Shown: positions 2,948 to 4,603 of the stretch, piece by piece | Numbering within the stretch: the first letter of the stretch is position 1 | Layout of the letters: every line of letters starts with the position of its first letter | DNA from: Ignavibacteria bacterium | GTDB taxonomy: Bacteria; Bacteroidota; Ignavibacteria; Ignavibacteriales; SURF-24 | Reading direction: 5' to 3' | DNA length: 64,000 nt | Assembly (NCBI GenBank): GCA_025612375.1 | Contig: JAAXKN010000002.1 | Coordinates: forward strand, 186,001 to 250,000 | Notes under the pieces: model-generated | What the model was told of the DNA's origin: nothing | Databases searched by the model: none | The model's input: the letters and a program-made list of their open reading frames with translations, nothing else | Made by a program: the position numbers and the translations under genes

Positions 2948-3019
2948 TCCGCGATAGCTCAATGGCAGAGCATTCGGCTGTTAACCGAAGGGTTGCAGGT
3001 TCGAGCCCTGCTCGCGGAG
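2948..3019 (+). tRNA. tRNA-Asn (anticodon GTT)
   Basis: 72 bases fold as a complete tRNA: acceptor stem TCCGCGA/TCGCGGA, D stem GCTC/GAGC, anticodon stem TTCGG/CCGAA with loop CTGTTAA (anticodon GTT at its centre), five-base variable loop, T stem GCAGG/CCTGC with loop TTCGAGC, discriminator G. CCA is not directly encoded after the discriminator; the next bases are CACCA. The 3' end is the attachment site of the mobile element, and the last codons of the recombinase run antisense to it. Confidence 0.95.
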
Positions 3020-4603
3020 CACCAAGGGATTTATGGTGATAGAATCACTGTAAGTCCCTTTTTTTATTGGTACTTGCACAGGTTCGAGCGGACTGTTTTC
3101 AGCCTCATTACCCTTTAGTGAATCATTGATTTCTTTTATCAGCAAAATTGGTTTTTCTAGCGAAATTATAAGCTTTCTGTCCTTTAAGAGGAGGTTCGAG
3201 CCAAGTGACTTTAAAATCATACGCTTCTGTTCAATCGTCCCATTTTTAAATGCTTCGTTGGCTGCCTGGCCAAACCTCATCAGACTTTCTACCGATTCCA
3301 TATCGGCCGATTCATCCTTCTCAAGCTTACTAACCAAAGCTTGCAGCTCTATTTCCCTGTCCTTAAACTGCGCCTTTTTCTGCAGAAATTCTGAGTCACT
3401 GAGTGTCCCGCTTAATTTCAGATCAATAAGCTTATCCACATTTCTCTGGATAACTGATAATTCAGTGCGATGGGCCTTAAGCAGATTCTTTCTGTCACTT
3501 ATAGACTTCATAGCATCCTTTTTTAGCATTTCCATAGCCCACGAGATGAAGTCCTCTGGAATAGTGATGCTTTCAAGCACATCAGAAATCTGGGCTTCAA
3601 GGCTTTTTACTTCAACCGTCTTCTGCGAGCAGTCTGGTTTTAACTTCTTGGTGCAGTGATAGTATGTATAGCTGTGGACATTCCCGTTTTTCTGGTGCTT
3701 TACTTTGTCCTCGGCTGTTATCGATGATCCGCATTCTGCACACTTAATAGCACCTGTAAAAGCAAATTCTTTTGCTTCTGGCTTCTGCTTGTATCTTTGA
3801 TCGAGAAGCCTTTGAATTTTGTCGAATTCTTCTTTTGTAACCATAGGTTCATGTTTTCCCTTTATCCAGTTACCGCTTTTTTTGGGGTATTCAAAGTAGC
3901 CATAATAGAAGGGATTCCTTAAGATCTGATAAACAGTTGTTTTACCTATTTTCCTTCCGAACCTGTTTCTGAGCCCCATTTCGCTATCGACCAACCTTAC
4001 AAGCTGTGATGGCAGGTAGGCTCCTGTCAGCATCAAATCAAACATCTTTCGCGTGGCATCAAATGTAACGGGATCTTTAACCATTTCTTTGTCACCTTTT
4101 CTCTTTAGGGGATTATGCAGGTAGCCAAGCGGAGGTTGCGCGGGGTACCATCCGCGTTCTGCTTTTGCCTTAAGCCCCCTTTGGGTATTTTTGCTCAGGT
4201 CTCTTATAAACTGGTTTGCCATTCCCTGCTCAACGCTCATCAGAAGAACATTGTCCTCTGGGTAGTAGCTTCTGTCGCTGCACTGTATGTGTTTTATTAT
4301 ACCCTGCTGAAGCATCCAGCTTATACTTCCAAAATCAATTGGGTTTCTAAATAGACGGTCCAGTTTCCAGCACAAAATTCCCTGGGCCTCTCCTGCGTGA
4401 ACTCTTGCAATCATCTTGTTAAAGACTGGACGCCCAGGCGCCTTAGCCGACTTTGATTCTGTCAGGACGTCAGAAATTTCAAGCCCTCTCTCCTGTGCAA
4501 GTTCTTTTAGAACTTTTAGCTGCGAATCGATGGACGCTACCTGCCTGTCCTCAGTTTCCGAGGACTTACGGGCATATAAAAAATATTTTACTTTGTTACC
4601 CAT
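2981..4603 (-). CDS. large serine recombinase (integrase)
   Basis: A 540-residue protein with an N-terminal resolvase domain (about 5-155; nucleophile Ser14 in the Y-x-R-x-S motif YARKS; also SIDSQLK and WKLDRLFRN), a Recombinase domain (about 165-270), a zinc ribbon with paired cysteines (CAEC ... HC ... DC, about 285-325) and a coiled-coil region (about 340-440). This is the architecture of large serine integrases that insert and excise mobile DNA. It would cut at the tRNA-Asn 3' end. Its last 10 residues, EQGSNLQPFG, are antisense to the tRNA, so the integrated gene borrows its stop codon from host DNA. In the excised circle (preferred att) the frame would continue about 33 codons to a stop at 23509-23511. 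Large serine integrases in tRNA genes are uncommon. Confidence 0.93.
   Translation of the reverse strand: MGNKVKYFLYARKSSETEDRQVASIDSQLKVLKELAQERGLEISDVLTESKSAKAPGRPVFNKMIARVHAGEAQGILCWKLDRLFRNPIDFGSISWMLQQGIIKHIQCSDRSYYPEDNVLLMSVEQGMANQFIRDLSKNTQRGLKAKAERGWYPAQPPLGYLHNPLKRKGDKEMVKDPVTFDATRKMFDLMLTGAYLPSQLVRLVDSEMGLRNRFGRKIGKTTVYQILRNPFYYGYFEYPKKSGNWIKGKHEPMVTKEEFDKIQRLLDQRYKQKPEAKEFAFTGAIKCAECGSSITAEDKVKHQKNGNVHSYTYYHCTKKLKPDCSQKTVEVKSLEAQISDVLESITIPEDFISWAMEMLKKDAMKSISDRKNLLKAHRTELSVIQRNVDKLIDLKLSGTLSDSEFLQKKAQFKDREIELQALVSKLEKDESADMESVESLMRFGQAANEAFKNGTIEQKRMILKSLGSNLLLKDRKLIISLEKPILLIKEINDSLKGNEAENSPLEPVQVPIKKGTYSDSITINPLVLREQGSNLQPFG
3014..3020. other. candidate attL core
   Basis: GCGGAGC covers the last bases of the tRNA-Asn acceptor strand and one base beyond. 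The same heptamer at 23611 is the preferred right partner. Large serine recombinases need only a very short identical core, so a seven-base repeat is acceptable but not proof. Confidence 0.55.
3024..3065 (+). terminator. element-borne terminator for tRNA-Asn
   Basis: AAGGGA (3024-3029) pairs with TCCCTT (3055-3060), an inner GTGAT/ATCAC stem adds stability, and seven T follow. It lies inside the recombinase coding region on the opposite strand. It replaces the host terminator, now displaced to 23624. Confidence 0.7.

Follow-up and report, generated by a model that had tools for sequence, protein, structure and literature searches.

The window analysed here is a 64,000-nucleotide stretch from an Ignavibacteria bacterium (contig JAAXKN010000002.1, positions 186,001 to 250,000), whose order also holds Ignavibacterium and Melioribacteraceae relatives. 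It contains an integrated element that begins at a tRNA-Asn gene, and a search with a tRNA-Asn query found this to be the single full copy in the genome. The element's large serine recombinase gene lies at this end and runs on the opposite strand into the tRNA gene (Table 1). The enzyme has the Resolvase catalytic, Recombinase, and zinc ribbon domains, all above the Pfam cut-offs, and the invariant residues of large serine recombinases are present (A1). Its Protein Data Bank matches are SPbeta YokA and the A118 integrase. It falls outside the XisF fdxN recombinase family NF041201, scoring 98.8 bits against a curated cut-off of 375.

Table 1. Features of the element, its tRNA target, and its attachment sites, in window coordinates
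Feature	Position	Strand	Basis
tRNA-Asn(GTT), intact integration target	2948..3020	+	ARAGORN
Large serine recombinase gene, integrated form, 540 aa	2981..4603	-	Open reading frame; Pfam Resolvase, Recombinase, Zn_ribbon_recom
EQGSNLQPFG, ten chromosome-derived C-terminal residues, antisense tRNA; stop at 2981-2983	2984..3013	-	Open reading frame versus tRNA coordinates
T-loop sequence (CTCGAAC, minus strand), inferred attB zinc-domain motif	2999..3005	-	5-bp shift to the attP motif
Left core GCGGAGC, with the crossover confined to 3017-3020	3014..3020		Common interval -20..-17 from the att motif, 12 element pairs
Integrated element, 20,597 bp	3021..23617		Cores 3014-3020 and 23611-23617, plus G001 flank
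17-bp hairpin and T run in the recombinase 3' coding end, element-supplied tRNA terminator	3024..3060	+	Kept in G004, G087, G015, and G155 with sequence changes
33 codons KLKAIRTCFMTSKDFKPYKYILNSMILSRKPHL following LR in the predicted circular form; stop at 23509-23511	23512..23610	-	Joined-frame translation
TTAGAAC, inferred attP zinc-domain motif, 5 bp farther from the crossover than the attB T-loop motif	23591..23597	-	Rule from PMC3783163
Right core GCGGAGC (attR)	23611..23617		Flank from 23618 onward equals the flank after tRNA-Asn in G001
Displaced original tRNA-Asn terminator, chromosomal right flank	23618..23656	+	Same sequence directly after tRNA-Asn in G001
Decayed tRNA-Asn copy outside the element, source of the alternative core	23661..23731	+	Sequence comparison

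As integrated, the recombinase ends in ...TINPLVLREQGSNLQPFG and a stop. A preliminary description of this DNA had held that the last 10 residues and the stop are antisense to tRNA-Asn, and the coordinates of the open reading frame (ORF) and the tRNA agree with this. The preceding LR is likewise antisense tRNA, so the last twelve codons, LREQGSNLQPFG, and the stop are all antisense tRNA-Asn. The seven bases of the left core recur at the far end of the element. When the two ends are joined there, the frame reads from LR into the 33 codons, giving 563 residues in total; this matches exactly the codon number, stop position, and protein lengths that had been proposed. The circular junction is predicted to read GCTCCGC followed directly by AAACTGAAAGCAATTAGAACC.

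The choice of right core was decided by G001, a genome of the same genus. Its tRNA-Asn gene continues directly into TGATATAAAGCCCAGAATGCC..., which equals the window sequence after 23617 in all but a few bases, and the shared flank begins at 23618 with TGATATAAAGCCC.... Because of this matching flank, the core that the preliminary description named first was chosen over its alternative at 23716-23724. The alternative was also rejected because the far ends in G001 and G004 share the first core and the tail. The second tRNA-end copy (23720-23731) is part of a decayed tRNA with its own terminator, and this tRNA-plus-terminator repeat lies beyond the element.

We gathered relatives from the source order, its phylum, and Patescibacteria, and recovered 88 recombinase ORFs, mostly from Patescibacteria; at the threshold applied, 95 of 380 Patescibacteria genomes carry the family. 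Sixty-six of the 88 ORFs end in or just past an antisense tRNA gene, and 17 tRNA types are involved. The swap of the recombinase C terminus belongs to the design of the whole family and is not a local accident. Dozens of related elements, from two bacterial phyla, share the arrangement. Viral contigs searched directly with the window protein yielded no relative, and plasmids and phages gave only 26-30% matches. For the closest relative, G087 (65%), the right end was not found in about 75 kb. At another locus (Ja1_bin-0683, L040 6377-6643, minus strand), a group I intron (Rfam RF00028) lies within the tRNA at which a related recombinase is located, and L185 looks similar.

The far ends of these elements encode a recurrent peptide. 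The far end of the window element, AGGTTCTAATTGCTTTCAGTTTGCGGAGC, has one occurrence in G000 and two in G001; diverged copies are present in G001, in G004, and on another G000 contig. Despite their differing DNA, all copies continue into LR[KW]L..[VI]RT[CF][FS] or LH[WC]L..VRT[YW]F. For such tails we searched 55 loci with enough sequence: stretches of 7 nt or more from the tRNA 3' end were matched on the element side, and the DNA there was read in the recombinase frame. An in-frame tail with the motif was found at 11 of the 55 loci in the true frame, at 0 of 55 in each of the two other frames, and at 0 to 2 with mismatched tRNAs. The remaining loci, taken as one group, mostly have short contigs, a far end beyond the 20 to 60 kb read, or a decayed element. 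Tails were recovered, for example, at tRNA-Ser (WRNIVNDVRTIIQQEQEYIYIPDLSGAVI), at tRNA-Tyr (CAVLEDVRTELINSLVPIYIPNLS...), and, with a 17-nt core, at tRNA-Gln (LRDLDEVRTVLLGGKSDFRYKIAIPDLMAAV).

Further far-end remnants were seen. Downstream of an apparently empty tRNA-Asn site, L009 (G001) has three, at 9617, 13670, and 16336; a copy of the right flank of the chromosomal attachment site (attB) follows one of them, and a diverged copy of that flank follows another. A further diverged remnant, LHCLKVVRTWFLENP..., lies at L033 1501 (G000 contig C54), with no tRNA noticed alongside.

Family members outside tRNA genes carry the tail contiguously: G198 ends in ...WGALVNDVRTFFLDK, G038 in ...WRGIVNDVRTIIEKS, and G733 in ...WGRIVCDVRTEM, and viral contig L180 also has a contiguous tail, ...LLGDLDDVRTYGYK. 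A check of the G733 contig for circularity found no terminal overlap. Because these members carry the tail as part of one gene, it is a normal C terminus of the family, one which integrated copies have lost. The G368 recombinase runs into a tRNA-Asn gene and ends in ...NAEHTIWLRE. At a distance of 1.5 kb, an inverted copy of the gene end, identical at 126 of 127 positions, parts from it exactly after GGCTCCG, continues as TLNEIRTFFSENPNAEF, and reads ...NAEHTIWLRTLNEIRTFFSENPNAEF before its stop. Either way, as a true inversion or as two states joined during assembly, it presents the predicted circular type of end in contiguous DNA. The duplicate flanks the gene (L037 1474-1610 and 3050-3235), and could be an invertible switch or an assembly join.

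The geometry of the attachment (att) sites gives evidence that is independent of the reading frame. In serine integrases, the zinc-domain motif is shifted by 5 bp between attB and attP, the attachment site of the circular element (PMC3783163). In all 12 pairs of ends, the tRNA T-loop sequence (TTCGAAC) has its attP counterpart at an offset of exactly 5 bp, with cores of 6 to 17 nt. The identical runs of all 12 share one four-base interval, 17 to 20 bases from the motif, which corresponds to the crossover interval in Table 1. A frame-blind search that required only a shared core and the att motif gave 18 matches at a shift of 5 and 0 to 2 at any other shift; a relaxed version, run on the main phase group, gave 28 at a shift of 5 and 1 to 6 at each other shift. 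All 18 frame-blind matches keep the recombinase frame and share one codon phase, and the tails that they encode are related ([VL]x[DE][VI]RT...).

These counts bear on the possibility that the window's frame extension is a matter of chance. In AT-rich DNA, 33 open codons are not rare, so the extension is weak by itself. However, the frame and shift controls contradict chance, and the same motif occurs in G001, G004, and elsewhere. The comparative evidence, namely, the G001 flank, the frame controls, and the frame-independent search, places the extension above chance, and we give a chance origin almost no credence. As judged from these sequences, the overlap, the swap, its generality, and the att geometry are established: integration exchanges a family-conserved C terminus for antisense-tRNA residues.

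A different reading is that attP merely happens to lie in the gene end and that the peptide is a translation of att DNA with no function as protein. The VRT of the tail is encoded by GTT(A/C)GAAC, a copy of the tRNA T-loop, and compact att-integrase modules may be favored, since their parts move together. However, among 37 tails the second codon position is the least variable and the third the most (p 0.014), and the frame stays open for three codons past the motif in all 37, versus 28 to 29 of 37 open in the other frames (8 and 9 stops). The motifs FFxENP or [IY]xIP[DN]L recur downstream, beyond the expected att half-site, and the tail is retained by members that are not embedded in a tRNA gene. 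We consider an overlap without protein function unlikely. The codon pattern and the additional recurring motifs argue for translation of the tail, and we infer that it is selected as protein. Counts of synonymous changes between similar tails were kept out of the evidence, because the pairs had been picked by protein similarity.

Several points weigh against our interpretation. The circular junction is a prediction from joined sequence. At 13 of the 66 loci (including G777a, G730, G886b, G567, G823, G748, G525, and G698b), the codon phase in which the recombinase reads through the T-loop is a different one, and no far ends were found at these 13. For the R of the tail, codons other than NGA are rare, and VGT, VIT, or VQT stands in a few tails instead; the DNA motif itself is therefore selected, which explains part of the conservation, and an initial view of the tail as purely protein conservation was scaled back. 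Beyond the motif alone, the codon-position test is borderline (p 0.05), and the p-values are rough because the tails are related. Tail length after RT ranges from about 2 to 40 residues. In a model of the G198 enzyme, a disordered linker leads into the tail, which is predicted as a helix at low confidence.

We propose that attP sits within the 3' end of the serine recombinase gene that the element carries. When the element is circular, this gene would extend past the crossover into the element's opposite end, which encodes the conserved tail h-[VL]-x-[DE]-[VI]-R-T-x-h..., probably a short helix on a flexible linker. The zinc domain of the recombinase probably reads the T-loop sequence in tRNA genes, and the attP mimic of the T-loop, 5 bp farther out, would be translated as VRT. 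Integration at the tRNA 3' end would cut the tail away and fuse the gene to antisense tRNA, leaving the enzyme with a short arbitrary end. Since the tail is conserved in the circular form, some role for it is likely. It would most likely be active in the circular phase only, aiding attP x attB integration; that the tail promotes integration is a guess, to which we give somewhat less than even odds. Integration would then strip the enzyme of its integration-competent end and latch the element in place. Taken as a whole, with attP in the gene's 3' end, the tail swap, and the latch, we consider this account probable.

The tail could instead be, as the preliminary description suggested, a built-in direction switch, with the circular enzyme integrating and the tailless form either recombining the left and right sites of the integrated element (attL x attR) or needing no separate directionality factor. 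The swap coincides exactly with integration, so that two enzyme forms match two substrate pairs, and C-terminal additions can set direction, as a directionality factor fused to an integrase C terminus enables attL x attR recombination (PMC5737554). Those fusions resemble the present case in that a C-terminal addition alters enzyme behavior, but they are engineered, carry a whole factor, and are not removed by recombination. The NCBIfam and PHROG matches of the recombinase end before the tail, which therefore resembles no known directionality factor. Because the integrated C terminus is arbitrary, only the absence of the tail can carry information. We judge a direction switch of this kind improbable.

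A degradation signal would make the circular enzyme short-lived and the integrated one stable, like mycobacteriophage integration-dependent immunity, in which the phage BPs repressor loses an ssrA-like tag on integration (PMC9262239). Some long tails do end in LQAA, MAAV, or GAVI, but many end otherwise (DSE, NPN, DLR, RKPHL), and the conserved part of the tail is not at the end, so we find this very unlikely. The most far-reaching reading, that a widespread family of bacterial serine recombinases uses the universal tRNA T-loop as a landing signal and carries a detachable C-terminal module removed by recombination, seems to us doubtful; one gene would then yield two enzyme forms matched to the DNA state, and the direction latch would record itself and need no separate directionality factor.

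Direction control in serine integrases is normally explained by att geometry and a separate factor. Here, recombination would edit the enzyme itself, giving a direct way to ask whether the C terminus sets direction. The closest likeness is to the archaeal suicidal tyrosine integrases (SSV, pTN3, and pT26-2 families), described as archaea-only, which also have attP in the integrase gene, a tRNA target, and a gene altered by integration (PMC8371274). They are tyrosine enzymes whose gene is split into two inactive halves, whereas the window element has a bacterial serine enzyme whose 540-residue ORF keeps all catalytic and DNA-binding domains and changes in its tail alone. Mycobacteriophage integration-dependent immunity (BPs; PMC9262239, PMC8092301) likewise has attP in a gene 3' end, with tRNA integration removing a C-terminal tail to give a second protein form, but the gene concerned codes for the repressor, alongside a tyrosine integrase; in the window element, attP lies in the serine recombinase gene itself. 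Among mycobacteriophages, the use of tRNA sites goes with tyrosine integrases (PMC9262239). The tRNA-targeting genomic islands in Islander also sit at a tRNA 3' end and restore the tRNA, but are described as tyrosine-integrase-catalysed (PMC4383910). Phage serine integrases (A118/Listeria integrase, SPbeta YokA, phiC31, and Bxb1) share the domain order and the 5-bp motif shift; unlike in the window family, a change of their own coding end is not reported in the openly licensed papers that our check for prior descriptions covered. The main text of a systematic survey of large serine recombinases does not mention tRNA (PMC10083194). The family resembles the archaeal suicidal integrases and would extend self-altering integrases from archaeal tyrosine to bacterial serine enzymes. 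By way of a shared motif it targets many different tRNA genes, and it could be a source of new integration tools; a recombinase cloned from an integrated copy would lack the natural tail and may appear inactive.

The recombinase 3' end has a third use. With their hairpin and T run on the tRNA strand, the element's first bases replace the tRNA terminator that integration moved 20 kb off, and one stretch serves as recombinase coding end, att site, and terminator for the tRNA. In the family, 27 of the 66 loci have such a terminator no more than 100 bases past the tRNA, versus 1 to 6 of 66 deeper inside the gene.

Decayed tRNA-Asn copies with an added CCCGAAAGCTTTCGGG hairpin lie on both sides of the element (2852-2925, 23661-23731, and about 24100-24150), and an exact 34-mer of this repeat has only two occurrences in the genome. 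A small GIY-YIG nuclease gene (Pfam PF01541; 23821-24078, plus strand) lies beside a decayed copy, and similar short reading frames appear, by eye, beside tRNA-Asn in the relatives L004, L006, and L023. The cargo of the element at 14073-15191, 15357-16346, and 18377-19291 includes REase-ARP, an AlbA/Schlafen-type protein, and an Mrr type IV restriction enzyme, making it a defence-rich island.
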